NCBI GenBank assembly: GCA_963575645.1
Contig: OY754465.1
Coordinates: 6,324,001-6,388,000, forward strand
DNA length: 64,000 bases
Direction of reading: 5' to 3'
From: Xanthostigma xanthostigma
Lineage: Eukaryota; Arthropoda; Insecta; Raphidioptera; Raphidiidae
Every line of letters starts with the position of its first letter. Within the stretch, counting starts at the first letter, position 1. Below the pieces are notes generated by a model. That model searched no databases and was not told the origin of the DNA. It worked only from the letters and a program-made list of their open reading frames with translations. Shown piece after piece: positions 14,883 to 62,295 of this stretch. Both the position numbers and the translations under genes were made by a program.

Positions 14883-14894
14883 ATAAACTATTAT

Positions 14895-15096
14895 CTTCAG
14901 TATAAAGTAGTGTTGATCCAATAGAATGTTAAGATGAAGGAAGGTTTTGGTTGAGGATCATAAAATAAGCTTTACCAGTGTTTCGCTAGTGGCCAACGTT
15001 TCGAAAAATTTATTTTCATCTTCATTTTTGAAACATTGGCCACTAGCGAAACACTGGTAAAGCTTATTTTATGATCCTCAACCTTCCTTCATCTTA
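14895..15096 (-). mobile_element. Palindromic Penelope-like retroposon (site A)
   Basis: A 12-bp target duplication ATAAACTATTAT flanks it (14883-14894, 15097-15108). A 34-nt unpaired tail (14895-14928) is followed by a palindrome (14929-15096) with ends TTAAGATGAAGG. The apex holds TGAAGA, a short helix and CGAAACGTTGG, a hammerhead-like arrangement on the minus strand. Part of one arm recurs at 49985-50040. No coding capacity. Confidence 0.75.
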
Positions 15097-15108
15097 ATAA
15101 ACTATTAT

Positions 15109-15764
15109 GTTTTTTTTGTTATCTAGCGCACGGATTGATTTCTCGAGTTCTCTAGGCGTTGAGTTTTTTTCCGTCTCGACTAAAGACAAATTTCTCGAGA
15201 ATGTCTCGCCTCGAAAATTCTCGGGCAGAAATCTGATCTGCCACTGAATGAAACTAAAATGTTATATAACAACCTCCCAAAATGTAATATACAAGCTTCC
15301 TGTCGCGGCTTCGCCCTTTTGGTTTGATATCGAATTTTGATTGTCAGCAATAATTAGAGTGATACCTAGTTCACTAAATCAGCGATATTTATGCTAGTCC
15401 AAAGTTATAAATAGCGATGAATATGTTGTAATTCATAATTATGTTGCGATATGATTTTGACTGGCCGGTGGCGTTGAAATGTGGTTAAAAGGCTCGCATT
15501 CGCATGGCTGCCAGAGGCGCCCATTTGGCCGATAGCATATTTTATAATTATATTGTTAAGTATAAATTTAAAACTCTACATGTAAAAAAATATATAAATG
15601 TACTAGTTTCACCCGGTTGCGATAGATTTAATTCTGCAAAATGTATTTCGTTTGCGTCTGAACTAATAGGTTTGAGCAAATTCTACCAGATTTGTTTCTG
15701 AACTAATAGTTTTGAGCGAATTATAACAGATGTCACTACTTGGTACAAAAACAGATGTAGTCAA
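15109..15764 (-). other. Intron sequence, nothing firm
   Basis: It contains TCTCGAG-rich wording (15130-15230) and GGCTTCGCCCTTTTGG near 15310, a word also seen inverted near 12295. Likely old repeat debris. Confidence 0.35.
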
Positions 15765-15778
15765 GTTTAACTGTTTAA

Positions 15779-16046
15779 TAAATAAAATTATCGATCAATT
15801 TTTCAGACAATATATTAACAAAAAATATAATTAATACATTAACGTTTCGATCCGGGTTTGGATCTTCTTCAGAACGGATCTAAAAATTAATTATTTTTTA
15901 TATTTTTTAGATCCGTTCTGAAGAAGATTCAAACCCGGATCGAAACGTTAATATATTTATTATATTTTTTGTTAATATATTGTCTAAAAAATTGGTCGAT
16001 AATTTTATTTATTGAAGAGTTCTAATCAGACGTTAATCAAAGATTT
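15779..16046 (+). mobile_element. Palindromic Penelope-like retroposon (Y family, site B)
   Basis: A 14-bp duplication GTTTAACTGTTTAA flanks it (15765-15778, 16047-16060). A palindrome (15779-16011) is followed by a 35-nt one-sided tail ending AATCAAAGATTT. Each arm carries CTGAAGA, a helix-forming AGAT(T/C)C...GGATC and GAAAC, in opposite orientations. This matches the hammerhead core consensus CUGANGA / helix II / GAAA. No coding capacity. The 35-nt tail and variable target duplications are typical of Penelope-like elements. Confidence 0.8.
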
Positions 16047-16053
16047 GTTTAAC

Positions 16054-16790
16054 TGTTTAAATTTTTTTCCATTTTAAACCGTCATAACGTCTAAACTAAT
16101 CGAGATACGACTTTGTGCTTAGGCCTAATCGATTCAGCGTACTTTTTTCTATAAGTCACGTCAACATTAAGCATATCGAGAATATAGTTTTCATGCGTTT
16201 TGTAAATGTGCAACTTTTTAAGACACTAAACGATTTTTGGCCTGTTTTATATTAACCGAACTTGTAGAAAAAGTCAAGCTGAATCGATTCCGACAATCAC
16301 TTTTAGTTTCGGAGATATGAGCGTTTATTCATATTATTAGAGAAAAACTTAAAAACGCACTAACTTCTAAACGACTAAAGATACCAAAGTGGGAGTGGTC
16401 GGAATCGATTCAGCGAGATTTTTTCTATAAGAACAACCTCAGCTGTAAGTCGTATATTAATAATATCTGAAGGATTTCTCGGTTTTTTAAAAACAGAAAA
16501 AGTAAGAAGGGGAGACCCTTCTTTCAAAATTGAAAAATTTTTGAAAAATAGTTGGCTCTGTTTCGTTTCATATTTTGCATAGAAAAAGTCATTATGAATC
16601 GATTCCGACCATCCGCAACCATGTATCTTTTGTAGTATCGAAGATATAGGTAATTTTAAGTGTTTAAATTTTTATCCATTTTAAACCGTCATAGCATCTA
16701 AACTAATCGAGATACGACTTTGTGCTTAGGCCTAATCGATTCAGCGTCAATATTAAGCATTTCGAGAATTTTATAAAAAAAATAACCATT
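16054..16790. repeat. Direct duplication of about 120 bp, 610 bp apart
   Basis: The segment beginning TTTAAATTTTTTTCCATT and containing AATCGAGATACGACTTTGTG and CCTAATCGATTCAGCGT occurs at 16058-16190 and again at 16663-16770 with few differences. The DNA between reads like the interior of the same repeat. Confidence 0.65.
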
Positions 16791-17569
16791 TAAATTTAAA
16801 ATTTCACCTTCGGCTTATTTCCATACAAAGACTCAGAGCTACTAAACGAGCAGAAAAACAAAACTTTAGTTTATCAGTTCTTCGATTTGGCGATTTTTCT
16901 GAAAATGTTGTTTTTTTGGATTTGTCAAGTTTTGCAAACGAGCTCCTCAATTATAAGTACACATTTTTTTTTAATTAATAACATTTTTCTGTTGCCACCA
17001 ATTTTTCCCATAATTTAATTATAGATTGCAAAGTATGGCATATGGCATAACAATTTAAAGAATAGGTATATCAATTTCATTTTCCGCCCATGTGATTTCT
17101 TATCAAAGTCAGTGTCTTTTCATTTGATTTTATACTTTTAGTTCTGCTTATTTCCGTCAACATTGAACCAAGCGGAAATATCAATCTATAAAAATACCTT
17201 TTCATTTGTCATCCGATAGCGCTGTGAAAAAGTTGCATTTAATGTCTAAAATAAATCAAAGGTAAAATGCCGGTGACATTTTCCGATAGAGAAGTGATAT
17301 TCACTACGTAGTATACAGGGTTGGTAAAAATCAATAAAATATACGAACAAATACTTCTATTTAACGAAAAACTCTTTAAAACGAAGAAATTTCTGAGGTT
17401 CGTTTCGTTTACATTGTAGCCTGTAGATTGAAACTCTATATAGCGTAACAATCACTCTCAATAGCAAAACATTACGTCATTATTTAGTTATGTAAATTTT
17501 TTTCACTTAATTTTGTCAAAATTGAAACCACTTATTCGTAATAATTATATTGATTTTTTTACTCTCCGT
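16791..17569 (-). other. Intron sequence, nothing recognised
   Basis: AT-rich; no open frame or clear repeat. Confidence 0.35.
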
Positions 17570-17573
17570 TTAA

Positions 17574-17993
17574 GAGTATTCGTCCCTGCAAATACCCCCT
17601 GCACCCTTCATCTCAAATCTTTTCCCCTCGCCTAAAAACGGTTCGCGATCTCCCGACGCTATTTTTAAAGCTAGAGGGTTCTGGTAAACGCCAAATGAAA
17701 GACAAAGAATCAGACTACAGATCCTTCAGGCGAATTTTTTGAAAAACAGTTTCGCGTACGTGTGAAATATTACGTAACTTATTATTTTTTTCAAAAGGTT
17801 GTAAGTTTTTTCAGGAATTTTTTTTCAAAAAATTCGCCTGAAGGATCTGTATTCTGATTCTTTGTCTTTCATTTGGCGTTTACCAGAACCCTCTAGCTTT
17901 AAAAATAGCGTCGGGAGAGCGCGAACCGTTTTTAGGCGAGGGGAAAAGATTTGAGATGAAGGGTGCAGGGGGTATTTGCAGGGACGAATACTC
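17574..17993. mobile_element. TTAA-flanked palindromic MITE, copy 1
   Basis: A 420-bp near-perfect palindrome with termini GAGTATTCGTCCCTGC, flanked by TTAA on each side (17570-17573, 17994-17997). Copy 2 is at 24618-25038. TTAA is the piggyBac target, but the tip is not a classical piggyBac CCYT end, so the superfamily is uncertain. The target itself lies inside older pogo-like DNA. Confidence 0.8.
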
Positions 17994-17999
17994 TTAACG

Positions 18000-18062
18000 A
18001 AAACTCTTTATAACGCAATACAATACCCGGTCCCTTCAATTTCGCTATATCGAGTTTACAGT
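18000..18062. mobile_element. Pogo/Tigger-like right end
   Basis: CGCTATATCGAGTTTACAGTG followed by TA closely resembles the right end of the 3982-4422 MITE. Only this end is clear because a TTAA palindrome is inserted just to its left. Confidence 0.5.
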
Positions 18063-18076
18063 GTATACCTATATCT

Positions 18077-18103
18077 ACGTTTTTTCGGATTATAAGACGT
18101 ACA
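18077..18103. repeat. Left member of a distant inverted pair
   Basis: ACGTTTTTTCGGATTATAAG is matched in inverted form at 21290-21318 (CTTATAGTCCGAAAAACACG). The pair encloses 3.2 kb that includes both minisatellites. It could be the terminal repeats of one element or two unrelated fragments. Confidence 0.4.
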
Positions 18104-18339
18104 TTTTTAGGCGCGAATAGCGTAAGCTAAAGCGCCTATATGTACTCGCTTTGTCTGTACGTCTGTGAATCTGTGAATCTGTGAATCTGTACGTCCCACT
18201 TTTTTGTGTCACGCGTACAGCCCAAACGCCTTGACCGATTTTAAAAAACTTTTTTTTGATCGATTCGTCTCCGGGTAACTTAGATCCTAACGTCGCCCGA
18301 TTTTTGAATTTTGGCCCCAGAGGGGAGAAATTTAGGAAA

Positions 18340-18820
18340 AACGAAGTTTTTTGCTTATAGCTCGCTCATTTTAAATCGGATCGGCTCGAAACCTGTCTTA
18401 AACGAAAGAGGAGAAAATTTTACATAAGTTTCGTACAACAGAAAATGCCCAAACAGTTTTTTTATACACATTTATATAGAAATAAATTCAATTTGATATA
18501 ACCGATGGCAAACATCTTTCGGTTATCTCTCTCTGTTGCACGGTTTAACATGGCAATTTAAAAATTGCGTATGTTCTGTCTTCAAATAAAATTGGTCGAT
18601 AATATTATTTATTACAATAATGAAATTAAAAGATAGCATTTGTTCAAAAACGGATGCCGTTTCGAATATTTGTGAAAAGCAACGCCTTCTGAGTTAACAA
18701 TTTGAATAACTAATTATTAGAACATAGGTAATACTTTGACAGAATATGCAAACGTCACTTTTGACATTTTTTACCATTCTGACACCACGGATGATCGGAT
18801 TGAAACCAAATTTTGGGATG
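18340..18820 (-). mobile_element. X family interior fragment
   Basis: Shares GGATCGGCTCGAAACCTGTC, the TTTTTTTATACACATTTATA stretch and the GGATTGAAACCAAATTTTGG end of the X interior, but lacks both X termini. A Y-family scrap (AAATTGGTCGATAATATTAT) lies at about 18585. Confidence 0.55.
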
Positions 18821-18864
18821 ATGTTTGATATGCAAATATGAAGTGGCCTATTGATTTTGGGGAA

Positions 18865-19295: not shown

Positions 19296-19489
19296 TAAAA
19301 CGATCGAATAAAAAAAAAACTTGGTGACTGATGATGAGATACTGTTTTAATAATTTGAGATATTAAAATATATAATAGTTGTGTGACTAAATTAATAAGT
19401 GAGCGACTGAATTACTAAGTGACTGACTAGAATGCCTTCGGTAATTTTGAAGCAGATATCTTCAACCGATTGAAATGAAGATTTGTATA

Positions 19490-20520
19490 CACATATAGTT
19501 TGGATGACAATGCATGGTTAGCTGTGTGACGTCACTCTAAATCCAATATGGCGGACTTCTAAATATGGCGGACTAATTTTATTATGCTTTCCTACAATAT
19601 GGGTATCAAATGAAAGGGCTTGCTGAGAATAACTCGAAAAATAAAGTGACGTCACTCTAAATCCAGTATGGCGGACTTCCAAAGATGGCGGACTAAGTTT
19701 TTTATGCTTTCCTACAATATGGGTATCAAATGAAAAGGCTTACTGAAACTAACTCAAAAAAAAAGTGACGTCACTCTAAATCAAATATGGCGGACTTCTA
19801 AAGATGGCGGACAAAGTTTTTTATGCTTTCCTACAATATGGGTATCAAATGAAAGGGCTTACTGAAACTAACTCAAAAAATAAAGTGACGTCACTCTAAA
19901 TCAAATATGGCGGACTTCTAAAGATGACGGACTAATTTTATTAGGCTTTCCTACAATATGGGTATCAAATGAAAGAGCTTGCTGAGAATAACTCGAAAAA
20001 TAAAGTGACGTCACTCTAAATCCAATATGGCGGACTTCTAAAGATGGCGGGCTAATTTTATTATGCTTTCCTACAATATGGGTATCAAATGATAGAGCTT
20101 GCTGAGAATAACTCGAAAAATAAAGTGACGTCAGTCTAAATCCAATATGGCGGACTTCTAAAGATGGCGGATTAAGTTTATTATGCTTTCCTACAATATG
20201 GGTATCAAATGAAAGAGCTTGCTGAGAATAACTCGAAAAATAAAGTGACGTCACTCTAAATCCAATATGGCGGACTTCTAAAGATGGCGGACTAAGTTTT
20301 TTATGCCTTCCTACAATATGGGTATCAAATAAAAGGGCTAACTGAAAACAACTCGAAATAAAAGTGACGTTACTCTAAATTCAATATGGCGGTCTAAGTT
20401 TTTATGCTTTCCTACAATATGGGTATCAAATGTAAGGGCTTGCTGAGAACAACTCGAAAAATACAGTGACGTCATTCTAAATTTAATATGGCGGACTTCT
20501 AAAGATGGTGGACTTAGTTT
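19490..20520. repeat. Minisatellite, 9 units of 119-120 bp
   Basis: GTGACGTCA recurs at 19526, 19646, 19765, 19885, 20005, 20125, 20245, 20364 and 20466. Each unit contains CAATATGGCGGACTTCTAAA and CTACAATATGGGTATCAAAT. The 120-bp period equals 40 codons, so one minus-strand frame stays open as a repeating 40-residue pattern. This is a by-product of the period, not a gene. Confidence 0.9.
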
Positions 20521-20705
20521 TTTACCCCGGAATTGTTTTTTTAAAAACTCCACATTTGCCCCTTCCCGTTTCACTGCGAGACAATTCGCATTCCCCTTTA
20601 TCGTTCACCCCGGAATTACAATTCGCATACCCGTTTATCGTTCACCTCGGAATTATTTTTTTAAAAACTCCACCTCTGCCCCATCGCGTTTCACTGCATA
20701 TATGC
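20521..20705. repeat. Two-copy CCCCGGAATT repeat
   Basis: CCCGGAATTGTTTTTTTAAA ... TTTCACTGCG occurs twice about 120 bp apart (20524 and 20645), with a partial third at 20610. The plan resembles the CCCCGTAATTG repeats at 26826 and 34326. Confidence 0.6.
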
Positions 20706-21460: not shown

Positions 21461-22060
21461 CAATCCATATGTTACGGTCAATGTCCGGTATACGAGCAAT
21501 GTCGACATTGACCGGACAATGTCGACAATGCCCGAGCCACATCGGGCAATGTCCGAAATCGGACAAGGTTCAAAAAATAGATTTTTTATAAACATGAAAC
21601 GCTGACATTTGATTGTTTCTTTATCATTATAAGTTATCATTAACGCTTTATGGAATTTTTATCACTGATAACAACTTTTGAAGAATATATTTTTCATCTT
21701 TCTATTACAATTATTGATGATTAAAAACACGTATAATTTATTTATTATTTATATGATATGAGCAATAAACAATATGATAAATAAAATTATCGACCAATTT
21801 TTCAGACAATATATTAACACAAAATATCAATAATACATTAACGTTTCGATCCGGATTTGGATCTTCTTCAGAACGGATCTAAAAATATAAAAAAATAATT
21901 AAGTTTTATTACGTAGTCATGGAAATAATTGTGAGCACCTATAAAGAAAGAAAAATTATTAAAAACAATATTATTTCAAAATAATATTATATATATTACA
22001 TAAATTTTCCGTATCTAATTGAGCATTGAGAGAATTTTTATTTGATTTTATATGTAACAT

Positions 22061-22248
22061 TTCCGAAATATTTCTTTTAAAAAAATTAGTTTCATTATCT
22101 AAAATTTTTATATCATCCCAATTAATTTTGTGGTCAAGTTCTAATTTGTGTTTAAATTAGAACTTGACCACAAAATTAATTGGGATGATATAAAAATTTT
22201 AGATAATGAAACTAATTTTTTTAAAAGAAAAATATTCGGAAATTCCAA
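22061..22248. repeat. Palindrome inside the Y element
   Basis: Near-perfect arms (ATTAGTTTCATTATCTAAAA; GGTCAAGTTCTAATTT and complements) meet at about 22155. Confidence 0.75.
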
Positions 22249-22301
22249 TATTAAAAAAATCTTTCACGAATTACATTAAAAATAAATAGAAACTAATAGT
22301 A

Positions 22302-23193
22302 CAGTCAATCTGGCAAAAACCTCAACAAAACCAACCAAAAAGGTGAAACTTGGTGAGTCGTTAGAGAATGATGAAAAAAAGGTTACCTGGCAATGGCCAC
22401 CTGGTACCTGTTCAAATACCTGTTCAAATAGTCAAAAAAAACTCAAAAATATTTTGAAATGCATTTTTCTCGAAAACTATCCATTTTACAGAAAAATTTA
22501 TTGAACAAAAAATGTAGAGGGCATCGTTATCTACAATTAATGTCATTGGTGCTATGTTGTACAACAAAAAATGTGCGCAGTAGGTGGCGCTTAAGTGCCA
22601 AAAAAAGTGTTTTTCCACTTTTTTGCCCTAAAATTTTCATTTTTCAGTTACGATTCAAATAGAAAAATTGTTCCATTTTATTTTATAAACAACTTTTATT
22701 TCAACATTTTTTTCATACAACTTACCGTTTCAGAGCTGCAGCTTGTTGAAGTGAAAATAAGTTGTATGAAAAGTAAGTTGTATGAAAAAAATGTTGAAAT
22801 AAAAGTTGTTTATAAAATAAAAAAAACAATTTTTCCATTTGAATCGTAACTGAAAAATGAAAATTTCAGGGCAAAAAAGTGGAAAAACACTTTTTTTGGC
22901 ACTTAAGCGCCACCTACTGCGCACATTTTTTGTTGTACAACATAGCACCAATGACATTAATTGTAGATAACGATGCCCTCTACATTTTTTGTTCAATAAA
23001 TTTTTCTGTAAAATGGATAGTTTTCGAGAAAAATGCATTTCAAAATATTTTTGAGTTTTTTTTGACTATTTGAACAGGTACCAGGTGGCCATTGCCAGGT
23101 AACCTTTTTTTCATCATTCTCTAACGACTCACCAAGTTTCACCTTTTTGGGTGTTTTTGATACGAAATGATTTTTTTTTCGCCAGATTGATTG
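22302..23193. mobile_element. TA-flanked long palindrome (Tc1/mariner-like MITE)
   Basis: 892 bp with ends CAGTCAATCTGGC and GCCAGATTGATTG, each flanked by TA (22300-22301, 23194-23195). The two halves are inverted copies, so the same 64-residue chance frame appears twice on opposite strands (22424-22618 and 22879-23073). Innermost level of the nest. Confidence 0.8.
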
Positions 23194-23555
23194 TACTATA
23201 ATTATTAATTATTTTTTTATATTTTTAGATCCGTTCTGAAGAAGATCCAAATCCGGATCGAAACGTTAATGTATTCTTGATATTTTTTGTTAACATATTG
23301 TCTGAAAAATTGGTCGATAATTTTATTTATTGAAGAGTTCTAATCAGACGTTAATCAAAGATTTGAATAAACAATATATCTCAATGCATTAAATTTCAGA
23401 ACTCATATTTATTCCAGCAATAAAAATAAAAATCAAAACTACGGATAATTTATTTTCACACATTTTATTTTAATAAATGAAATTATGTTTATTGCTCTCT
23501 TAAGCTAATCTACTCATAATCTTCTTATTACTCAAATACAAAAACCTTCCATTTA

Positions 23556-23925: not shown

Positions 23926-24613
23926 ATATTAGAATCCGAGAGATTTATATAATGTGATCGGGAGCTGAATTCACGAAAGAAATGGTGTTCTGTGAGCTTT
24001 TGTCACTAAAAAACCAATCGTTCGTGAGCATACGAGTTGGATACGAGCTGTTTACACTCTGTTTTACTTTGAAGGCTGATATAAATTATTTATGAATGAG
24101 ACACATATAACTGGAAACGTTCACGTATATAAAATGAATTTAAAGACCACCTGCAGGCTTATTTTAATGTGAATACATATTGCGTTTGCACAGCGTACAG
24201 AGCTCTGCCTTCGCGACGCCCTCTTCCCATCTTTATTTCTTGGCGCCCCTTCGTGAATTATTAAAATATTTACCTGTATGTCGCAGCTATTTTTGGAAAA
24301 TCGCGAAATTCGCATTTTCAAGATTGCTTCCGCAAAATTTTAATCTTTACGGTTACGTTTGTAAATCAGATTTGCCATATTAAGTCTTTGGCTTAAATTA
24401 CAGCCGAAATTAGTGTCATATACACGACGTTATAGGTTTGTCTAATACAAATCTCGAGATTCCAGGAAATAAATTGTTAGAAGAAAAAACTTTTTAAAGA
24501 AATGTTTTTATTGAAATGTGCTAAAAATAAAAAAAAATATTTTTTTTAATAATTTCGGTTCATAATTCTATAATACAAATTTTTGATTGCTCTTCAATAA
24601 ATAAAATCGCGCT
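23926..24613 (-). other. Intron sequence, nothing recognised
   Basis: No supported feature; short chance frames on both strands. Confidence 0.4.
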
Positions 24614-24617
24614 TTAA

Positions 24618-25038
24618 GAGTATTCGTCCCTGCAAATACCCCCTGCACCCTTCATCTCAAATCTTTTCCCCTCGCCTAAAAACGGTTCGCGCTCTCCCGA
24701 CGCTATTTTTAAAGCTAGAGGGTTCTGGTAAACGCCAAATGAAAGACAAAGAATCAGACTACAGATCCTTCAGGCGAATTTTTTGAAAAAAAAATTCCTA
24801 AAAAAACTTACAACCTTTTGAAAAAAATAATAAGTTACGTAATATTTCACACGTAGGCGAAATTGTTTTTCAAAAAATTCGCCTGAAGGATCTGTAGTCT
24901 GATTTTTTATCTTTCATTTGGCGTTTACCAGAACCCTCTAGCTTTAAAAATAGCGTCGGGAGAGCGCGAACCGTTTTTAGGCGAGGGGAAAAGATTTGAG
25001 ATGAAAGGTGCAGGGGGTATTTGCAGGGACGAATACTC
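24618..25038. mobile_element. TTAA-flanked palindromic MITE, copy 2
   Basis: The same family as 17574-17993: GAGTATTCGTCCCTGC ends, TTAA flanks (24614-24617, 25039-25042), near-perfect palindrome. The two copies are about 95 percent alike by eye, suggesting recent spread. Confidence 0.8.
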
Positions 25039-25042
25039 TTAA

Positions 25043-25865
25043 AGAGTAAATATGAAGGAACGTCATTCCTAGCGAGTAGCGGCAATAATATTTAAAAATA
25101 TAAATTGGTATCAGATTACCTTGACCTAATACCAATTTATTTTAAATGTAAATAAAAAAAGAGATTGTTTTGTTTAAATCAAAATCACATCCGGTTATAA
25201 ACTGCGAGCAATCAAATAATTTTCAAAAATTGTAAATTAAAAATAAAAGCATAAAAATGATTTAGTAAATGAGAAGGATATTTCAAAAAATGATTTAATG
25301 CAGGCCATTAATGTTTTCAGTTAAACGGAAAATATACCAGGTATATGCTATGTCATTTTTTATAATATGTTTTGCTCATTTTTCATTTCAAATACAAAAG
25401 AAAGTCATGTAATATATCGTGAATACAAGCACAAATGGCATTATTGATGAATAACCATACAATAGAGTTGGACCACTGATTTGGCATAATATCGGAAACT
25501 CACTTCGCACCGCAATGCATTGCAAAATTTATCAGGAAACTAATTATTATTACTTTATTTATTTTGCTATCATAAAATTACACGTATGAGTATTACAAAA
25601 AAAACTAAATTCGTGCATTTATTAATATTATTAGAATACAAATTAAATAGTTGTTCAAATATATCATTTTAATTGCACTGAAAGAAGAAATACATACTTT
25701 CTTAGTCATTAATATTTTTTGCATAATCCGGTATAAAATAGCAGCTTTAATGCCTGCATAGCGGTTGTAAAATGACCTATTTCGAACTAGCCCGTAGAGT
25801 AAAATAAAAAGAATGCAAAACGTGGTCGTACTACCATTTATTATATTTCTCTTAATAGCGCTATT
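25043..25865 (-). other. Intron sequence with one small hairpin
   Basis: A hairpin AAATTGGTAT / ATACCAATTT with a spacer of about 17 nt lies at about 25103-25140. Otherwise nothing recognised. Confidence 0.4.
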
Positions 25866-26115
25866 TTCTGCGATTTGAGCAAAGCTTTTGACACAATAGG
25901 CTGTTAATTAAAATTTAACATCTTAGAATCCGTGGTCAGGATTTTAAATTGATTTCTTCAGAGGCGAAACAGATAGAGTGTGGTGTCCCACAAGGCTCTG
26001 TGCTTGGTCCAATTTTATTTGTACTCTAAGTAAATGATTTACCTAGTTGATGATTTTTAATATTAATTTTATTACTTTGACGACACCTTCTGTATTTAGC
26101 TTATGGTTAATAAAT
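25866..26115 (+). pseudogene. LINE reverse-transcriptase relic (Jockey/CR1-like)
   Basis: One frame reads FCDLSKAFDTIGC (25866-25904). After a deletion and frame change, a second reads EAKQIECGVPQGSVLGPILF and then VL, a TAA stop at 26027-26029, and VNDLP. A degenerate YFDDT follows near 26077. These are the DLSKAFD, PQGSVLGP and YADD blocks of non-LTR reverse transcriptase. The spacing between the first two blocks is about 50 bp short. It is dead, and inserted in the intron opposite to the receptor gene. Clade assignment is only by general wording. Confidence 0.8.
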
Positions 26116-29978: not shown

Positions 29979-30687
29979 ACTGCAGGTATAAATCTATCTT
30001 ACTTCAAGGCTATAGATATTTATTCGCCTGATAAAACAATAATGGCCGCCACATAGATCATAATACCTACCTATAAACGTGGAGTATTATATCTACAGTT
30101 GCTCTTGTGAATTTATTTATTTGTCGTTTATTAACCTTTTGTGAAGTGTATAGTTGTAAAACATTAAAGTTAGTGGAAGTTTTGTGTACAATAAAACATT
30201 ATTATTTTGTGAATTTTTTTTGACGTTTACACTAACAGTCGGTTTTTGGGATTAACGTCAAAATATTCAACAAAAAGGGCAAGGAATATAATGCAGTGTA
30301 TATTTATTCTTTAACATAATTGAATTTTAAAGGGTAATCTAGGACTACTTAGTGTAGTTAATTATTTATTCCACCAACGTTTCGATCGATATTCTATCTT
30401 TTTCAAGGTTCTAAAAAGTCAATTGAAAAAGAACCTTGAAAAAGATCTAATATCGATCGAAACGTTGGTGGAATAAATAATTAACTGCACTAAGTAGACC
30501 TAGATTACCCTTTAAAATTCAATTATATTATTTAACGGACGTAGAACATAACATATTTATTCTTTAACTAACTTTTCTACCTGTTATTTTGCTTGGTGAA
30601 TTGAAAGTTTATTTTATTCTAACGAATAAATTTGTTCCAAGATTAGTAACTTCTATCTTTAATAGTGTTCGGTGAATATGGGCATAA
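29979..30687 (+). repeat. Z repeat, copy 1 (interrupted by a retroposon)
   Basis: Runs from ACTGCAGGTATAAATCTAT to GAATATGGGCATAA. The reverse complement is found at 50832-51870. It carries the palindromic element 30316-30552, which is absent from the other copy, and lacks the Helitron present there. Class unknown; non-coding. Confidence 0.7.
30316..30552 (+). mobile_element. Palindromic Penelope-like retroposon (site D)
   Basis: A 16-bp duplication ATATTTATTCTTTAAC flanks it (30300-30315, 30553-30568). The palindrome (30316-30526) carries CCAACGTTTCGATCGATA and its complement, with a CTTGAAAA / GATC...GATC / GAAAC hammerhead-like core. A 26-nt tail (30527-30552) lies on the right only. The 50.8-kb Z copy is an empty-site reference. 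Confidence 0.78.
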
Positions 30688-33149: not shown

Positions 33150-34235
33150 AGTGAAAGTTGGGCTTTAAAGTAAATATTTCACTTAAAATTCTCTCTAGTT
33201 CACCTACTGCACTGGTTTCTATGCTTGGAATGTAATACGATGTAAAAACAGAAGTTTGATGGATTGAGCGAGGCTGTGATTTAGGGAACAGTGAACCATG
33301 CTGATGTCTTTTATGTTTTCGTCTGAAGTTCCCAAATACCGTAATTGTGAATATTCACTGCGAACATAATTACAGTTTATTATTGATCTAGACGTGTATC
33401 GAGATTTCAAGTCGGTCGTTTTACAAATGGCATATTCTGTACCTAAATAAACTATCTTTACACCCTTATGTTTAAAGTAGTGATGGAATTAACTAACACC
33501 GGGAAATAAGCGATTCCAAAAAGGGATTCAGTACGATAACTCTATGTGCTCAAATTTTGTTTTTTTTTTGTCTTATGTACCTTAACTTTTGTTAATGGCT
33601 ATGGTTAGTAATTAATGTTTATTTTCATAATTATTGTTTTGAATTTTTTATTGTACTTGAAAAAGTCTAAATCTATAGACGAAACGTCGTACATTAATAA
33701 ATCTAATTTTGTCCACAATCCTGCGATTTTTCTTATTAATTTATTATTATCTCGATGGACACGATATCTAATATATGTTATAGAAAACGCTAAATTTTGA
33801 CGTTCCAAAAAAGTAAACTTGGCGGATTATTCACACATTTCCTCAAAAATACATATAAGACTTATATTAATTCTTTAGGAATCAACAACATAAACTGTAT
33901 TGCGTTGCTCTGAAACAAAGTTTTTATTTTATTAATCCCAAATTATATTTACATTATTTACACAAAATCCTACTTGAAACAAAGAAACGACATTTAAAGC
34001 TTATAATTAAATGTTAATTCCAATATAATATTATTTAACTTTAAAAGAAATTTAAAACCAAACTGAAACATGCCAACTATAATATCTTTCGCTATTCTTG
34101 CCAATGACTTATCTAACCTTTTCCTTTTCTCTTAGGTAATCTTTATTTAATATTTACGATTACGCGTAGCGCGGCAAGATTTAAATTAAAAGAAGTACAC
34201 TTCTTTTACATACATAAAAACTCTTTGTCTTTCAC
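33150..34235. other. Mostly unassigned; one hammerhead-like motif
   Basis: At 33649-33696, GTAC ... TTGAAAA, AGTCTA-AATC-TATAGAC and GAAACGTC are followed by GTAC, so even a short stem I can form. It may be a solitary pseudo-LTR of a Penelope-like family. The rest of the interval shows nothing. Confidence 0.45.
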
Positions 34236-49570: not shown

Positions 49571-50039
49571 TCTGAATCAAAAATTTTTTTATCTCGTAGC
49601 GAGCAGTGAGAATTGAAAAAAGCAAAAACTTTTTATTTTTAAATAAACATGAAAATAGTGTTTTGACAATCATTGCACCTCCAAATGACAAAAAAATTAA
49701 AAAGTACCTACTCTTCCAATAAATTAAGAGTACTTGGATGTCATCTCACTATTTACTATTTAGAAGTCATTTTAACTTTAATCTTAACTGTTAATAGAAG
49801 TTTTGTTCCAAAATATGTATTGAAGGAGAAGTACAATATTTATTTTCATATTGGACCGAACAATTTTATTTAAAAACTGTGTTATGATATTTTTAAATTT
49901 AAAAACTGTGGAAATTCATAATAAATGATCATGTATATTACATTAATTTGTACAATTTACCATCTCAACTTGCATTGACGCCCTGAATATATATTTTTCG
50001 AAACGTTGGCCACAAGCGATACTCTGGTAAAGCTTATTT
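49571..50039. other. No firm feature; site A arm fragment at the end
   Basis: 49985-50040 (CGAAACGTTGGCCAC, CTGGTAAAGCTTATTTT) matches one arm of the 14895 retroposon. Confidence 0.45.
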
Positions 50040-50500
50040 TGTAACACCACGTCTTAAAAAGCCACGCCACCACTGGTGTACTTTGGTGGTCATGTAAAAA
50101 AACAGAGGCAAGATGGCAGTGGAGCGTATGAACTAGGAAGTAGTGTTCATGTTACAAAATTACGTTAATAAATGTGTTGAATTAAAAAATATTCATGTTA
50201 CAAACTTACGTTAATAAATATGTTGAATAAAATAATACAATTTTTCAACTGTTCCTCAAACAAATAAATCTCTTCAATTTAAACCTTAACATTTTGTAAG
50301 AATAGCCAAGCGTATGAACTAGGAAGTAGTGTTCATGTTACAAAATTACGTTAATAAATGTGTTGAATTAAAAAATATTCATGTTACAAACTTACGTTAA
50401 TAAATATGTTGAATAAAATAATACAATTTTTCAACTGTTCCTCAAACAAATAAATCTCTTCAATGTAATCTTAACATTTTGTAAGAATATGCTCCAAGAA
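50040..50500 (+). repeat. Repeat with a 186-bp tandem duplication
   Basis: Matches 39720-39930. GCGTATGAACTAGGAAGTAG starts at 50124 and again at 50310, and the whole following segment (to TTTTGTAAGAATA) is duplicated with few changes, so the duplication is recent. Confidence 0.75.
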
Positions 50501-50831: not shown

Positions 50832-51870
50832 TTATGCCCATATTCACCAAACACTAATCATATATATTAATACGCTAAGGTTAAAGATGTTTGCCACCCT
50901 TTTTAGAAAAAAAATCACAATTTCTCCACATAAATTATATATCATTTTACAGATAATTGCTTGCACTACTGACATCGACTACTAAAAAATTTATTATTGC
51001 TTTTGTTTTTGTAAATTAATTAAAATACAGCAACGCTGAACAACGTCTGCCATCTGACGGCTTTAGTTTTGAAACAACGTCAACACTTCGATCTGTCATC
51101 TGACCTTCATATTGTAATACAACAGTCACAATGCTGTATACTGCCATCTGACGGCTTTAATTTTGAAACAGCGAGCAACGCTGAACAACGTCACAGCAAT
51201 GCTGCATGATGCCATCTGACGGATTAGCTCAACGCTTTTGCTACTTGCGCCTCTATATGACAATTTTAGTAAAATATTTCTTCGATCTGTCATCTGAGCT
51301 TCATATTGTAATACAACAAAAAGAAGAACGTTATAAGCAGTGCGCAAAATTAGAAACGAATTGAATACCTGCAATCATATTTAAAAAATAATTTTGTAAA
51401 GTGATAATTATTATACTTATTTAGTGCGAATAATTCGCACAGGTCACACTAGTAAAGATACTAATCTCGGAACAAATTTGTTCGTTAGATTAAAATTTAC
51501 TTTCAATTCATCAAACAAAATATCAGGTAGAAAAGTTAGTTAAAGAATAAATATACACTGTATTATACTCCTTGCTTTTTTTGTTGAATATTTTGACGTT
51601 CACCCAAAAAGCACTAGTGTAAATATCAAAAAAAGTTTCACAAAATAATAATGATTTATCCTAACCCAGTTGCACACAAAACCTTCTTTAACTTTAATGT
51701 TTGACACTTTGCAAAAGGTTAATAAGCAACACATAAATAAATTCACAAAAGCAACTGTAGAATATATAATACTCCACGATCATAAATCTATGTGGCGACC
51801 ATTATTATTTTATCAGGCGAATAAATATTTAGATCCTCGAAGTAAGACAGAATAGATTTATACCTGCAGT
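50832..51870 (-). repeat. Z repeat, copy 2 (contains a Helitron)
   Basis: Reverse complement of 29979-30687, from TTATGCCCATATTC to ATTTATACCTGCAGT. The Helitron 50858-51452 interrupts it. Outside that, the match resumes at AAAGATACTAATCTCGG. Confidence 0.75.
50858..51452 (+). mobile_element. Non-autonomous Helitron, copy 3, with paralogous empty site
   Basis: A|TCATATATATTAATACGC start, GTGCGAA-TAA-TTCGCAC hairpin (51424-51440), CTAG|T end. It lies inside Z copy 2. In Z copy 1 the flanks ACACTA and TAAAGAT are directly adjacent (minus strand, about 30662), which confirms both boundaries and the A-T insertion rule. Confidence 0.93.
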
Positions 51871-53462: not shown

Positions 53463-54700
53463 AACTTCCCGCTTTAAAAAAAAAAAATTTTTTTTTTCAA
53501 AAATCGGGAAGTTGTTGGTTTCACCCCGATTTTCGAAAATCGAGTTTTCGCCAGATCTCGACGTTTTGAGGTCCTGGGAAGCTATTAAAACTATTTTGGC
53601 GATGATGTCCGTAGGGCTGTATGTATGTGTGTGTGTGTATGTATGTATGTAAACCTTTTATATCTTTTGAACGGAGTGTCCGACTGAAACGCGGTTTGCG
53701 GCATCTGACGTGATCTTGGTGAACTTAGACTTCCTGAAAATTTGAAACGATTCGGCCCAAAAAATTTTGAGAAATCTTAAAAAAACAAGTTTCAAAAATT
53801 TTTTAAAATTTGTTTTTGTAAAATATTTTCAAAACTACTAAACCGAATAATTCCAAAATCTAATCAGCTCTTCTCCTTAACAAACTGCGTCGATTTCCGC
53901 AAACCGCATCAAAATCGGTTCATTTGTTCACGAGATACCGTGAACGAAAAAATCGTAAAAAAGTGTTTTTTTAAAATGATTCTTAAAATTGTTATCAGAT
54001 CGATTTTTTTGTAATAAATTACTTTCTTAGGCTAAAAAAACTGCGTCGATCGCCGCAAACCAGATCAAAATCGGTTCATTTGTTCATGAGATAACGTGAA
54101 CGAAAAATTAGGAGAAAAGTAATTTTTTATAAATAACGTAAAATTCTTATCAAATCGATTTTTTTGTAATAATTTACTTTCTTAGGTTAAAAAAACTGCG
54201 TCGATCGCCGCAAACCAGATCAAAATTGGTTCATTTGTTCATGAGATAACGTGAACGAAAAATTAGGAAAAAAGTAATTTTTTATAATTACTCGTAAAAT
54301 TCTTATCAAATCGATTTTTTTGTAATAATTTACTTTCTTAGGTTAAAAAAACTGCGTCGATCGACGCAAACCGCATCAAAATCGGCTCATTTGTTTGTTT
54401 TTTTTTAATTACTCGTAAAATTCCTATGAGATCGATTTTTCTGTAATAAATTACTTTTTTAGGATAAAAAATTGAGTCGACTGCCGCAAATCGCATCAAA
54501 ATCGGTTCATTTGTTCATGAGATATAGTGAACGAAAATTTCGTAACAAAGTGGTTTTTTTTTGAGCTCGAAGAGCTAAAAAATAAACTTCTTGCTATATT
54601 TTATATATTTTTGAGCGTTTTGAACTCGAAAATAGCGGGAAGTTATAGGGATGGCCTGCAGGATCAAACTTCTTTTCAAATTTTTTTATTTATTTTATTT
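53463..54700 (+). mobile_element. CTTCCCGC repeat, arm 1
   Basis: Begins AACTTCCCGCTTT, followed by a local foldback to TCGGGAAGTT, and runs to AGCGGGAAGTTATAGGGATG plus CCTGCAGGATCAAACTTC. It contains a (TG)n/(TATG)n tract at about 53620. Four to five tandem subrepeats are headed ACTGCGTCGAT (53886, 54051, 54196, 54352) and carry CAAAATCGGTTCATTTGTTC. The reverse complement lies at 59862-60947. No coding frame of note. Confidence 0.75.
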
Positions 54701-55494: not shown

Positions 55495-56467
55495 TCCGGA
55501 CCATAGAGATATAAGTAACTACAGTTCACTAGTTCGTATGCTTGCCATCAGTTGAGAAAGAGAACGCTGCAGAAAACCAGATATTTGTTTACTCAAACCA
55601 TAGATATATATATTTAATAGATTGCGGATACACTAGCGTCTCCTGTACCTTTTAGAAGCCATTTTGTACGTGGAAAACGCCGTAAAAAGCGCGCGAGATT
55701 CAAAAATATTCATTATTTTATAATATGATTTTATTGAGAAAAACAACAAAACTCACAGTAAACAGTGATATTTCCCTCCAAAACCTATTTTTATACTGAA
55801 ACGTTTCAAAAATTACAAAACTGAGCATAAATTAATGTTAAAGCTTAGAACATTTTACATTGTGAAATTGGCATCAATGCTTGTCAACCTTGATACCAAA
55901 TTGACAATGTAAAATGTTCTAAGCTTTTACATTATATTTATGTAAGAAAGGATGAATTATTTCGGAGAAGGCTATAAATGATTTCTAATGGTATATGCTG
56001 CCGACGTTTCGGAAAATATATTTCCTTCCTGAGGGCTTACATCTGTGAAATTACAGGTATTTTACAAAAGTGCATATAAAATCATTTATAGCCTTCTCCG
56101 AAATAATTCATCCTTTCTTATTAAACATAGGCTAAACTAATACACCTTACACATTATATTTATGCTTAATTTTGTAATTTTTAAAACGTTTCAGTATAAA
56201 AATAGGTTTTGGAGGGAAATATCACTGTTTACTGTGAGTTTTGTTGTTTTTCTCAATAAAATCATATTATAAAATAATGAATATTTTTGAATCTTGCGCG
56301 TTTTTTACGACGTTTTTCCACGTACAAAATGGCTTCTAATTGGAACCATTCCGCACAATGCTCAAGGATAGGCATCCGCTATCTATTAATATATGTATCT
56401 ATGACTCAAACCAGCATTGTTTCACAGCTTACTCGCGTACTCCAGTCTAATATCTCTATGGTCCGGA
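55495..56467. mobile_element. Foldback transposon with nested retroposon
   Basis: Outer inverted words TCCGGACCATAGAGAT and ATCTCTATGGTCCGGA; inner long arms AGAAGCCATTTTGTACGTGG (55657) and CCACGTACAAAATGGCTTCT (56318) extend about 170 bp. A hairpin (about 55838-55930) and the retroposon 55943-56150 sit in the middle. Part of its left arm is also at 5489-5605. Confidence 0.75.
55943..56150 (+). mobile_element. Palindromic Penelope-like retroposon (site E)
   Basis: A 14-bp duplication ACATTATATTTATG flanks it (55929-55942, 56151-56164). Arms TAAGAAAGGATGAATTATTT and complement (to 56120) surround a centre that on the minus strand has CAGGAAG, GGAAA...TTTCC and CGAAACGTC. A 30-nt tail (56121-56150) lies on the right only. 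Box 1 is a poor match to CUGANGA, so ribozyme activity is doubtful here. Confidence 0.75.
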
Positions 56468-56952: not shown

Positions 56953-57190
56953 GCGGGGTGGCGTAGTGGTGAAAGCACTAGACTCGCATTCGGGAGGTAC
57001 CGGGTTCAAATCCCGGCGGGGGCAGATGGGACTGAAACTTTTTCCTGCTGCCTCTCGCCGAGAAACGATAATTCCTATACCGGCCATCTTGTTGAGGTTT
57101 TCCGTGGTTTCCCTCAATAATTCCAGATAAATATCGACATAGTTCCTTATTGAATGTCATGACCGATTACCTGTCAAATTCCTGTTCTCA
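56953..57190 (+). mobile_element. tRNA-derived SINE
   Basis: The head is GCGGGGTGGCGTAGTGG, then GCACTAGACTCGCATTCG and the B box GGTTCAAATCC at 57003-57013. The body has TTTTTCCTGCTGCCTCTCG and TACCGGCCATCTTG, and a 3' segment TTTTCCGTGGTTTCCCTCAA of a kind recurring in insect SINEs. Best-preserved copy of the family also present at 5877 and 56586. Confidence 0.8.
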
Positions 57191-57646: not shown

Positions 57647-59032
57647 AAAAAATAATGTTCAGGCATAACATTGTAAATAACATATTATTATGCTTCTCTA
57701 AACTTTTTAACTCAATGTTTTTCAGTACCATCAGTGACAATGTTATAATATTTCTTTGTGAATTGTTTTCTTTCTTTTCAGTAGCGTTCATGATTTTCTA
57801 AAGAAAAGTCTTTCTTCTACACAACATGATATGAAAAAGTCTAAAACTGAAAAATTTGGTGGTTTGACTGATCAAAGAGTTTTCAATTGTGGAAAATTAT
57901 TTTTCAAAGAAAAATGTTTTTAAAAACGCTGTTTGCCTTCAGAATCCGCCTTACCATCATTAAAACTTCAAAGATCCGAGTAAAACACAAACGAAAAATG
58001 ATGTCATCTCTCTTAGTATTTTGAATCGGATTGTGTCGACACAATCGGTTCAATACAGTGCGGAATTTCGTTTATTCTTGCGGATTGCACATACAGCCAT
58101 ATGCATACCAACTATTTTATCCTAGGGGGACCAAATTTTCAACTCTACCTAGCATTACCATCTGCTACTTATACATAATTTGAAAACTGTTCATAGAAGC
58201 GAAATCGATCAACACGACTTTCCGGAGAAATTTCAACGCAAAGAAAATATGTAGATTAATCTTGTTGTTTGCTACCACATCGCCTTTGATAATGTCTACC
58301 GCAGTTGTAGACGAAACGTCAGGTAGTAATACCAATGGACCACGGCATACAAGCCCGGAAACCAAGAAGATTTGAATTTTAATTTTGAATAAAACAGATC
58401 TACTATGACGACGCGCGACATGAAGTGAACATTACGTGTTTTGTGGACCAACCTTTATGAAGTAATGTATACACCAGACATAGTCCAGTGTGTATTCATG
58501 CTTGTAAAGGGTTCAGATAATAATATTTATTTCTAAATGAATGACTTATAATTATAAAAAGGCAAAACCAACTCTCCGTGACATTTTTAGTTAAAAAATA
58601 CAGCTGAGCGAATGGTGAAAGCATTTCAGGAAAGCAAACAATTTATTTCATTAGCGTTTTGTAAAACTTGTAACCCAGCTAACAACCTTGTTTGCAAATG
58701 AAGTATTTAAATTAGGATATTTTGTGACTACATATTTTTTCTCGAAACATAGCTCATTTTATACAAGTATGCGTTGAGAGTCTGGGTGTGATTTCTTATT
58801 TTTACGACTTGTAAACTCCGTCGTGAAAGCGCTTTTTTAATCAGTGAATATGTTTTTTTTTAATTGGCTATTAATGGGTATTTATGTTATAATTGTGTTA
58901 TTGAGGTGAATATGTCTTTTTCTATAATACTTCTTTAAAAACAGGGGTATTAAACTCGTTTCCCTATGTAACGAAATTTGTCACGAAATTGTACTATTAT
59001 AGTGACCCTATATAAACAATGTTTCTTTACAA
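57647..59032. other. Mostly unassigned; one hammerhead-like motif
   Basis: 58284-58325 has TTGATAAT, GTCTAC-CGCAGTT-GTAGAC and GAAACGTC, the order of a hammerhead core with a six-pair helix II and a decayed box 1. The rest shows no supported feature. Confidence 0.4.
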
Positions 59033-59098
59033 GCATTAGTAGCTCAGTGGTAGAATGCTGGCATACCACGCGGCCGGCGTGGGTTCGGTTACTATGCA
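59033..59098 (+). mobile_element. tRNA-Gly-like sequence, decayed
   Basis: GCATTAGTAGCTCAGTGGTA, then TACCACGCGG and GGTTCGGTTACTATGCA closely follow tRNA-Gly. The T stem and part of the acceptor stem no longer pair, so tRNA pseudogene or SINE head. Confidence 0.6.
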
Positions 59099-59131
59099 CG
59101 GAATAATTTCTTTTTTTTTTATTTTTTTTAA

Positions 59132-60737
59132 GGTAGTACCTCCACAAATTCTATATTTTAGGAAGTCTTTGAAATTTGGTATATAAGTAATTAAATGCAT
59201 AATACACACTCTGTTAAAATTTGAAAACGATTTACCGTACCGAACATGAAATAATTGCAATTAAAAATGACATTTTTTATACATATAGCATAGGGAAAGC
59301 GTGAGAAAAGGACATTTTTTTTTTTGTTTTTAATTGAAGGACTTTCACCATCTTGATGAAAAACTAATATTTGTTAGAATAATATATTCCGAATAATTTA
59401 AAAAATATATAAACATTATTTACCACGTAGTTTTGATAAAAAATAAAAATGAAAAACATATTTAGACAAATATTTGCAGTGGAAGGATTGTGAGAACGGT
59501 CGCGTGGAAACTATGTGGCAACGATGTAACAAAAGAGAAAGGCGCTAAAATATGAAATGATTAAATTTTTTTAAGAAAAATTTTTGCCCTCGCATAGATT
59601 AGATTCGGCTGATCCAACATTATTTGTTGTTAAATTATTTGACTCTTTTTTCTCGCGTAGAGCTGTGGCAATTTTCAGTTTTTTATCAAACACTTTTTTT
59701 TATAAATCTTTCTTTATGACGTATACAAAAAATACTAAGAGTTTATATGTTTCCTCGATTTGGAAACTATGGAAATATGCGGTGATGTCAGATTTCTACA
59801 CAAAATAATATATCATAGTGTTTGTGTATTCATATAGAGGAGTACACTCACTTTAAAAAAATTTGAAAAGAAGTTTGACCCTGCAGGCCATCCCTGTAAC
59901 TTCCCGCTATTTTCAAGTTCAAAACGCTCAAAAATATATAAAATATAGCAAGAAGTTTATTTTTTAGCTCTTCGAAAACACTTTTTTACAAATTTTTCGT
60001 TCACGATATTGATGCGGTTTGCGTCGATCGATGCAGTTTTTTTAACCTAAGAAAGTAAATTATTACAAAAAAATCGATTTGATAAGAATTTTACAAGTAA
60101 TTATAAAAAATTACTTTTTTCCTAATTTTTCGTTCACGTTATCTCATGAACAAATGAACCAATTTTGATCTGGTTTGCGGCGATCGACGCAGTTTTTTTA
60201 ACCTAAGAAAGTAAATTATTACAAAAAAATCGATTTGATAAGAATTTTACGAGTAATTATAAAAAATTACTTTTCTCCTAATTTTTCGTTCACGTTATCT
60301 CATGAACAAATGAACCAATTTTGATCTGGTTTGCGGCGATCGACGCAGTTTTTTTAGCCTAAGAAAGTAATTTATTACAAAAAAATCGATCTGATAACAA
60401 TTTTAAGAATCATTTTAAAAAAACACTTTTTTACGATTTTTTCGTTCACGGTATCTCGTGAACAAATGAACCGATTTTGATGCGGTTTGCGGAAATCGAC
60501 GCAGTTTGTTAAGGAGAAGAGCTGATTAGATTTTGGAATTATTCGGTTTAGTAGTTTAGAAAATATTTTACAAAAACAAATTTTAAAAAATTTTTGAAAC
60601 TTGTTTTTTTAAGATTTCTCAAAATTTTTTGGGCCGAATCGTTCCAAATTTTCAGGAAGTCTAAGTTCACCAAGATCACGTCAGATGCCGCAAACCGCGT
60701 TTCAGTCGGACACTCCGTTCAAAAGATATAAAAGGTT

Positions 60738-60781
<44 letters not shown>

Positions 60782-61035
60782 TACAGCCCTACGGACATCA
60801 TCGCCAAAATAGTTTTAATAGCTTCCTAGGACCTCAAAACGTCGAGATTTGGCAAAAACTCGATTTTCGAAAATCGGGGTGAAACCAATAACTTCCCGAT
60901 TTTTGAAAAAAAAAAATTTTTTTTTTTTTTAAAGCGGGAAGTTAAAAAAATAGTCTGCTGTCTTAGTAACGATCATATCAGTAATGTGGGTATTAAGCGT
61001 AAACTTTTTAACTGGACAGTCGTGGAGGTACTACC
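59132..61035. mobile_element. TTAA-flanked element carrying the CTTCCCGC repeat
   Basis: Inverted ends GGTAGTACCTCCAC and GTGGAGGTACTACC with TTAA on both sides (59128-59131, 61036-61039). The tip GGTAGTA is shared with 34848-35248. No transposase frame. More than half of it is the CTTCCCGC repeat (59862-60947). Confidence 0.65.
59862..60947 (-). mobile_element. CTTCCCGC repeat, arm 2
   Basis: Reverse complement of 53463-54700, slightly shorter, with a longer (AC)n tract (about 60746-60774) and one fewer subrepeat. The match includes the CCTGCAGG flank beyond the CGGGAAGTTA word, so the repeat unit extends past the apparent inverted tips. Confidence 0.75.
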
Positions 61036-61039
61036 TTAA

Positions 61040-61561
61040 ATATACTTATTATAAATAAAATTTTCGACTAATTTATCAGAATAACACTTGAGCTGAAAAA
61101 ACAAAATTTGCAGTAAATTGTGAAAATAAAAAAAAAACAATGTTTACAGTAAACCTGCGAAAATTTTGTTGTCTGCTTGTGTTTTCTTATTTATTATTTG
61201 CAGTAAGCCTGCGAAAAAATTAAAAATGCGTTACGAGAACGCATTACAGAAGTGAAACTTCTAGTTGCAAATCATACGGTTGCATTTAAACAAGTGGAAA
61301 AAATGTGTTACGAGATAGTTTCACGTTCAGATTAATTTGTACAGACGAAATATTTGAGCGTGAAACTATCTCGTAACACATTTTTTCCAATTGTCCAAAT
61401 GTAAAGGTTTCCGCAGAATCCGAATATAAAATAAAAAAGTATGGTTCCCATTTAAAATTTCAAAGTTGAGCCCTACGGGACCCTTTTATTGTCATCGGGC
61501 CCGAAATCTAAATTTGCCATTCAATAGACAGGAAAAAATTATTAAAAAAAATCATTTTGAC
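61040..61561. repeat. Unassigned; palindrome at 61293-61400
   Basis: ATGTGTTACGAGATAGTTTC and complement with a short spacer; outer words CAAGTGGAAAAAAT / ATTTTTTCCAATTG. Possibly a small MITE. Confidence 0.5.
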
Positions 61562-61574
61562 ATTTTTAGTCCGG

Positions 61575-61902
61575 ATCTTTGATTAACGTCTGAATAGAAC
61601 TCTCCAAATAAATAAAATTGTCGACCAATTATTCTCAGACCATATTATATTGACAAAAAATAATAAAAATACAAATCAATATAACACAAGATGACGTTTG
61701 TTTCGATCCGGATTTGGATCTTCCTCAGAAATATTTAAAAAATATAAAAATTAATTAGTATTTAGTTACTTATTATCTAATAGAATGCACGAAAGATTGA
61801 AAGTTTGAATGATTCAAAAAATTGTGTTATATTGATTTGTATTTTTATTATTTTTTGTCAACATATGGTCTGAGAAAAATTGCTCGACAATTGTAGGTAT
61901 TT
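61575..61902 (-). mobile_element. Palindromic Penelope-like retroposon (Y family, site F)
   Basis: A 13-bp duplication ATTTTTAGTCCGG flanks it (61562-61574, 61903-61915). The family tail (31 nt, 61575-61605) is at the left, so it is inserted in reverse. The minus strand reads CTGAGGA, AGATCC-AAAT-CCGGATC, GAAAC, with box 1 a perfect CUGANGA. Arms begin AATAAATAAAATTGTCGACC. Confidence 0.8.
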
Positions 61903-62114
61903 ATTTTTAGTCCGGCTTACCCGATAAGAAATATTTAGCCGTTCCGGGACTTTTGAAACATCTGTAAATATTATAATACTTTTATATTACTCTTTTGACA
62001 CAAAATTAAAAGAAAAAGACCATTTTACGATCCAGTCAAAGATGTAGTGTTTATAAGTATTTTTTTTTTGAGTTTTTCTTTTTCTCATTCTAGAAATTTT
62101 ATATAGCGTTAATT

Positions 62115-62279
62115 AATAAAAAATTGAGAATAGTTACTTCTTACCACAACAAGTTTATTAGTGGATGTACATTTTGAGTAGCTCTCAAAATGTACATCCA
62201 CTAATAAACTTGTTGTGGTAAGAAGTAACTATTCTCAATTTTTTATTAGATTCAAACCACAGTGCTCCTAATATTTTTG
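62115..62279 (+). mobile_element. Perfect-hairpin retroposon (site G)
   Basis: A 16-bp duplication TTATATAGCGTTAATT flanks it (62099-62114, 62280-62295). A perfect 133-bp palindrome (62115-62247, arms of 64 bp or more, apex TAGCT) is followed by a 32-nt unpaired tail (62248-62279). It has the same plan as sites A-F but without a hammerhead core. Perfect arms and a perfect duplication point to a very recent insertion. Confidence 0.82.
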
Positions 62280-62295
62280 TTATATAGCGTTAATT

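Follow-up and report, generated by a model that had tools for sequence, protein, structure and literature searches.

In the Penelope-like retrotransposons of Adineta vaga and Drosophila virilis, inverted pseudo-long terminal repeats (pseudo-LTRs), one of which carries a 31-bp tail, occur together with short target duplications, 5' truncation and palindromes at inverted junctions (PMC3846280; this and the other papers are cited here for particular passages), and inverted pseudo-LTRs and short 3' extensions have been noted in individual copies (PMC8969392). Minimal type I hammerheads have been reported in Penelope-like elements (PMC7761336), and a purified Penelope-like protein, that of Poseidon from Anolis carolinensis (PAc), cuts and extends both strands of its target with a preference for AT-rich DNA (PMC11167929; Frangieh et al. 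2024). In the latter system the open reading frame (ORF) begins at stem II of the hammerhead and reverse transcription begins internally at two adjacent sites, the commonest start lying 111-118 nt into the ORF, and the genomic tail is the stretch between the two sites. Further steps of the insertion are said there to await validation; how a Penelope-like insertion is completed, with its inverted ends and its optional tail, is the question addressed by the footprints described here, which lie in a 64-kb stretch of the genome of Xanthostigma xanthostigma (GCA_963575645.1, contig OY754465.1, positions 6,324,001 to 6,388,000), hereafter the window.

Here, I show that seven insertions in this window share one plan, namely a palindrome that is followed on one side only by an unpaired tail and is enclosed in an exact direct repeat of 12-16 bp. 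They probably belong to several Penelope-like retrotransposon families and were truncated at the 5' end on insertion, with both target strands acting as primers and reverse transcription beginning at two start sites. The A. vaga and D. virilis elements retain the ORF or long fragments and are flanked by duplications of 8-10 bp, whereas the copies in the window mostly stop within the pseudo-LTR and have duplications of 12-16 bp. Like PAc they have AT-rich targets, and they would share with it a hammerhead followed by internal start sites, a tail between these sites, and the cutting and extension of both strands; the PAc work, however, concerns a single protein in vitro, and its cited passages contain neither palindromic insertions nor an assignment of one site to each strand.

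Palindromes with one-sided tails

The inverted repeats of the window were listed (BLAST, E<=1e-6, less than 4 kb between arms) independently of the sites named in an initial annotation, and 39 were obtained, some of them nested or overlapping. Seven of the 39 have an exact flanking direct repeat of at least 12 bp, and these are the seven sites already named (S1 to S7); in the remaining 32 the longest flanking direct repeat is 11 bp or less. Under a null of dinucleotide-Markov sequence with matching geometry, a direct repeat of at least 12 bp arose at a rate of 0.00295 (59/20,000), which gives a binomial p of ~3e-11 for 7/39, while a cruder null of random pairs of window positions, inflated by the genuine tandem and inverted repeats of the window, gave 57/1500 and a p of 0.0006. 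This count set no tail requirement, S1 to S7 having originally been picked for their shared plan, and no tail-less palindrome with a direct repeat of at least 12 bp occurs among the 39, though the search could have caught such cases. At each of the seven, one end of the palindrome stands at the direct repeat (within 1-2 nt) and the other end 26-35 nt away from it, so that all are one-sided; had each end picked its start site randomly, seven mixed pairs of seven would be expected with a chance of 0.008.

Arms and tail are common to three of these insertions, which constitute family A: S2 (15779-16046, +; tail of 35 nt at right, 14-bp repeat 15765-15778 and 16047-16060), S3, the longest copy of the family (21776-23365, +; tail of 35 nt at right, 12-bp repeat 21764-21775 and 23366-23377), and the diverged S6 (61575-61902, -; tail of 31 nt at left, on the longer arm, 13-bp repeat 61562-61574 and 61903-61915). 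S3 is not a simple palindrome, for its right arm contains a palindromic insert of ~0.9 kb and also lacks part of the left-arm sequence. The other four share no palindrome arms with family A or with one another, which brings the total to five families: S1 (14895-15096, -; tail of 35 nt at left, 14895-14929, 12-bp repeat 14883-14894 and 15097-15108), S4 (30316-30552, +; tail of 26 nt at right, 16-bp repeat 30300-30315 and 30553-30568), S5 (55943-56150, +; longer arm tail-less, tail of 30 nt at right, 14-bp repeat 55929-55942 and 56151-56164) and S7 (62115-62279, +; arms of 65 nt, tail of 31 nt at right, 16-bp repeat 62099-62114 and 62280-62295). An eighth palindrome, P0 (12047-12173, +), also belongs to family A and has the family A tail at right (35 nt, 12139-12173); its right arm has suffered a loss at or near the outer end. 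A further family A copy, C37 (37873-38112, -), consists of a single arm and is non-palindromic and tail-less. Short traces of the family at 18588-18613, 24590-24607 and 61051-61080 were excluded from the counts as too short.

The plan of palindrome, one-sided tail and direct repeat is therefore confirmed at all seven sites, with direct repeats exactly as long as the initial annotation had stated. Its tail lengths stand at five sites and are altered by arm alignment at two, S1 (35 nt for a claimed 34) and S7 (31 nt for 32), in both cases within the ambiguity of 1-2 nt that attaches to these boundaries. The S4 tail falls below the published range of 30-40 nt, the other tails, with that of P0, reaching up to 35 nt. 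As regards the claim of at least five unrelated families, five were indeed found, but the second, third and sixth sites proved to be one family and P0 had been missed. The duplications are AT-rich (17.5% GC vs 32.4% for the window).

Empty sites

To the direct repeats may be added the evidence of unoccupied relatives. The flanks of each of the eight insertions were joined with one copy of the repeat and matched against the window, and relatives spanning the junction were found for three, S2, S4 and S5. The relative of S4 (51455-51659, -) is identical in 185/210 columns and has the 16-bp target once. S5 sits inside a larger palindromic host repeat whose inverted repeat, once S5 and one repeat copy are omitted, is identical in 440/469 columns, and the other arm of this host thus serves as the empty site. 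The relative of S2 (16642-16747) agrees in 98/106 columns, with just 12 nt of match beyond the target on the left. For P0, S1, S3, S6 and S7 there is no junction-spanning relative in the window. The target duplications are real, and not chance repeats, at three of the eight sites.

Varying centres of family A

The four palindromes of family A match one another at their outer ends but differ in every case at their inner ends. The arms measure ~49 nt in P0, 111 and ~126 nt in S2, 81 and at least 167 nt in S6 (216 nt if the entire unpaired centre is counted to that arm), and 372 nt and ~10 less in S3, where the lengths were taken by reading the sequence and by repeat comparisons, the automatic alignment of the arms having been misled by the inserted repeat. 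Where the arms of S2 and S3 differ, the columns follow the insertion in three cases and neither the side nor a crosswise pattern in any; another seven differences are confined to a single arm. Since the centres differ and the S2/S3 differences group by insertion, the palindrome was seemingly formed anew at each insertion, and the family A copies look like elements that were 5'-truncated each time; this comparison covers family A alone, S1, S4, S5 and S7 being represented in the window by a single palindromic copy each. The tail-less arm exceeds the other in S5 and also in S3, there by just a few nucleotides, which preserve the reading frame, while the tail arm is the longer one in S6, S2 and S1. 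That either arm may be longer suggests two separately made complementary DNAs (cDNAs).

Hammerhead-like motif and an apparent ORF end

Eight arms, in S1, S2, S3, S4 and S5, contain the heptamer CGAAACG at a distance of 69-74 nt from the end of the palindrome (74 nt in S1). These insertions represent four of the five families, and S1 and S5 have in common a matching stretch of 24 nt surrounding the hammerhead-like motif described below. Seven other arms of the 16 do not show the heptamer in this form: both arms of P0, both of S7 and the left one of S6 end before or near the point at which it would stand; in the left arm of S1 it is without its initial C; and from the right arm of S5 it is missing. 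S7 has no hammerhead-like motif. The heptamer is part of a hammerhead-like motif which in the right arm of S2 occupies 15902-15955 (+) and has equivalents in S1, S3, S4, S5 and S6. In family A it consists of CUGARGA, an extra A, a 5-bp stem and GAAAC, the intact CUGANGA box being confined to this family; in C37 the stem II pair GAUCC/GGAUC is changed to GGUCC/GGACC, a compensatory replacement, yet GAAG replaces GAAA. An automatic scan gave stems of 3-6 bp in S1, S4 and S5, in which the CUGANGA box is degenerate, and a relative of the S1 family at 49984-50040 has a stem of 3 bp. Stems of at least 5 bp occur at 204/3249 random positions, and a single stem accordingly proves little. The distance from stem II to the tail end is ~109-129 nt in S1 to S5, which compares with the 111-118 nt between the stem II origin of the ORF and the commonest start in PAc, and 146 nt in S6.

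Rfam hammerhead models have no match in the window; a permissive E-value, tried just on 15700-16100, returned 35 matches, all below the gathering scores and none a hammerhead, many of them microRNA precursors, an outcome to be expected of a long hairpin. A hammerhead pattern had no match in the collections searched, none of them eukaryotic, and a looser one picked up two viral stretches and 52 in the prokaryote collection, a stem of at least 4 bp being present in just 6/54 loci, which were taken as chance.

Both arms of S3 continue beyond the pseudo-LTR into the apparent end of an ORF, the left arm containing an open frame of 61 residues that terminates in a stop (21974-22156, -). I take this frame to be a putative C-terminus of a Penelope-type ORF, although no database match confirmed it: Pfam gave no family and PDB a best E of 0.66, to an unrelated enzyme. 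Four pattern matches to the frame in viral contigs were set aside, none being confirmed as a relative. The ORF end as a piece of Penelope is thus a lead and not a test.

The traits of Penelope-like elements that the insertions display are the inverted pseudo-LTR with a tail on one side, the variable duplications at AT-rich sites and, in family A, the 5' truncation. A Penelope-like origin, which the initial annotation had proposed, is well supported by this anatomy, with a tail geometry that resembles the one reported for the purified enzyme (PMC11167929), by the hammerhead-like motifs at a near-fixed distance and by the variable AT-rich duplications, to which the apparent ORF end of S3 may be added, although it has no database match.

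Other features of the window

Two further palindromes, at 17570-17997 and 24612-25044, have identical ends (TTAAGAGTATTCGTCCC) and probably represent one MITE-like family (miniature inverted-repeat transposable element); the second adjoins the short family A fragment at 24590-24607. A 1.2-kb inverted repeat at 10362-11570 (96% BLAST identity) has no flanking repeat of at least 8 bp in the windows searched around it. Tandem arrays of 156-bp units occur at 53882-54395 and 60009-60507, their units looking like mutual reverse complements, and an array of 120-bp units at 19526-20524 has an open frame of 157 residues (-) with weak Pfam matches below the cut-off. An apparent exon at 2771-3109 (-) is an ORF with a match to the receptor ligand-binding family ANF_receptor (E 3.9e-06; 26.6 bits against a cut-off of 25.4) and a resemblance to metabotropic glutamate receptors. 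Judged by eye, 25920-26025 (+) resembles a piece of reverse transcriptase from a long interspersed nuclear element (LINE). A tRNA-like stretch at 56958-57017 (+), which scores 31.6 bits, above the Rfam gathering score, and is not called by ARAGORN (bacterial code), could be a tRNA-derived repeat.

A proposed two-strand, two-start model

The insertions can be accounted for as follows. An enzyme encoded by the element would cut the target strands at an AT-rich site, with 12-16 bp between the two cuts, leaving 3' overhangs, both of which would prime reverse transcription of the element RNA. On one strand it would start at the distal internal site, which corresponds to the tail end, and on the other at a proximal site 26-35 nt upstream, which corresponds to the palindrome end; each cDNA would halt at an arbitrary upstream point, and the two would be joined head to head. 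The outcome would be a duplication of 12-16 bp enclosing a palindrome that is tailed on one side. The model builds on what is directly observed, namely the anatomy, the duplication at three sites, the agreeing outer and differing inner ends of family A and the alternation of the longer arm. From the 12-16 bp duplications I infer 3' overhangs of 12-16 nt serving as primers, and I likewise infer one start site per strand in each insertion and the manner in which the cDNAs would be joined. Among the titles, abstract openings and passages searched, none proposes a two-strand, two-start mechanism for Penelope-like elements, and priority for it is not established.

A related process is the twin priming of L1, in which another cDNA is primed on the RNA by the second strand of the target, leaving an inverted segment inside the target duplication. 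Twin priming of L1 joins different stretches of the RNA, whereas the two cDNAs proposed here would start 26-35 nt apart, hence the palindrome. A stricter version of the model, which I am slightly inclined to doubt, makes twin priming obligate: each target strand would have its own dedicated start site, the two 26-35 nt apart, cDNAs that stop early would as a rule yield a palindrome with a one-sided tail, and the classic inverted pseudo-LTR would be the same product with one long arm.

Several observations weigh against the model, and some of them against its strict version in particular. The 3:0 column count in S2 and S3 is small; P0 has a decayed repeat (12034-12046 and 12174-12186, 10/13 bp, with a comparable score in 167/20,000 random flanks); and S6 has CGAAACA at 100 nt, outside the interval of 69-74 nt. 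No reverse transcriptase or GIY-YIG domain was found by Pfam in the S3 ORF end or in six other ORFs of the window. Hammerhead-like motifs also occur outside palindromes, at 33680, 49999 and 58312 (+), the sequence at 49984-50040 belonging to the S1 family, and together with the single-armed, tail-less C37 they indicate that palindromes are not the sole outcome. Finally, the cited passages of PMC11167929 find no apparent difference in start sites between top and bottom strands and call the tail optional, which keeps the assignment of one site to each strand conjectural and, along with the single-arm copies, weakens the strict version.

Alternative explanations

Self-priming, in which one cDNA or antisense template folds back and is copied, was proposed from the palindromes at inverted junctions (Arkhipova et al. 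2013; PMC3846280), and the centres of P0, S3 and S7, with loops of 5-6 nt, could be the hairpin loops that it calls for. A fold-back copy should, however, share the outer end of its template. The tail of S3, like that of S5, sits on the shorter arm and is missing from the longer one, and in S5 this longer arm is moreover the one that bears the hammerhead-like motif; S6 is the reverse case, its longer arm carrying the tail; and the tail-less arm would need to stop 26-35 nt short every time. Self-priming thus fits the junctions less well than two-strand priming does, and I regard it as unlikely. The proposal of the initial annotation, that of a whole class of miniature non-autonomous Penelope-like elements, would have a palindromic source element transcribed and copied whole. 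It agrees with the size of the insertions, six of the seven named sites being shorter than 350 bp, and a fixed form may hold for S1, S4, S5 and S7, which are single palindromic copies; in family A it is not supported, because the four palindromes differ in centre and arm length in a pattern of truncation, the S2/S3 differences fall 3 by insertion vs 0 by side, and the longest copy, S3, reaches an apparent ORF end, for which there is no database match. It has a low probability. On this evidence the insertions are not a new class of miniature elements; they are of a known kind, Penelope-like and truncated.

Explanations from outside the Penelope-like elements are very improbable. DNA transposons of the MITE type, with terminal inverted repeats, would be in keeping with insertions that are palindromic, short and AT-rich, and other palindromes of the window are MITE-like in appearance. 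Yet one end of each insertion lies 26-35 nt beyond the palindrome, so that the inverted repeats do not reach both ends; the duplications vary within family A (14, 12 and 13 bp in S2, S3 and S6) where a fixed length would be expected; the other 32 inverted repeats of the window are without a direct repeat of at least 12 bp; and the hammerhead-like motif, as well as the apparent ORF end in S3, speaks against them. Metazoan retrozymes, small non-autonomous hammerhead elements that spread via circular RNA, are hardly to be expected here either. They resemble the insertions in small size, in having no ORF and in their hammerhead (PMC7229834), to which a hammerhead-like motif corresponds here, and Penelope-like elements have been suggested as their helpers (PMC7761336); but they are described as direct tandem repeats of ~300 bp with canonical type I ribozymes (PMC7229834), whereas the repeats here are inverted, a tandem-repeat run finds no array at P0, S1, S2 or S4 to S7 and in S3 only rows inside the inserted repeat, and the Rfam hammerhead models are without a match.

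Conclusions

Annotators should be warned that short palindromes of this kind may pass for MITEs or for novel miniature families. A palindrome that has its tail on one side and whose arms were truncated separately would constitute a genomic footprint that links the two-strand, two-start activity seen in vitro to real insertions. A genome-wide count of tails on one, both or no side, and of which arm is the longer, could decide between two-strand priming and self-priming, and the value of the finding lies in a footprint by which the insertion mechanism of Penelope-like elements becomes testable.

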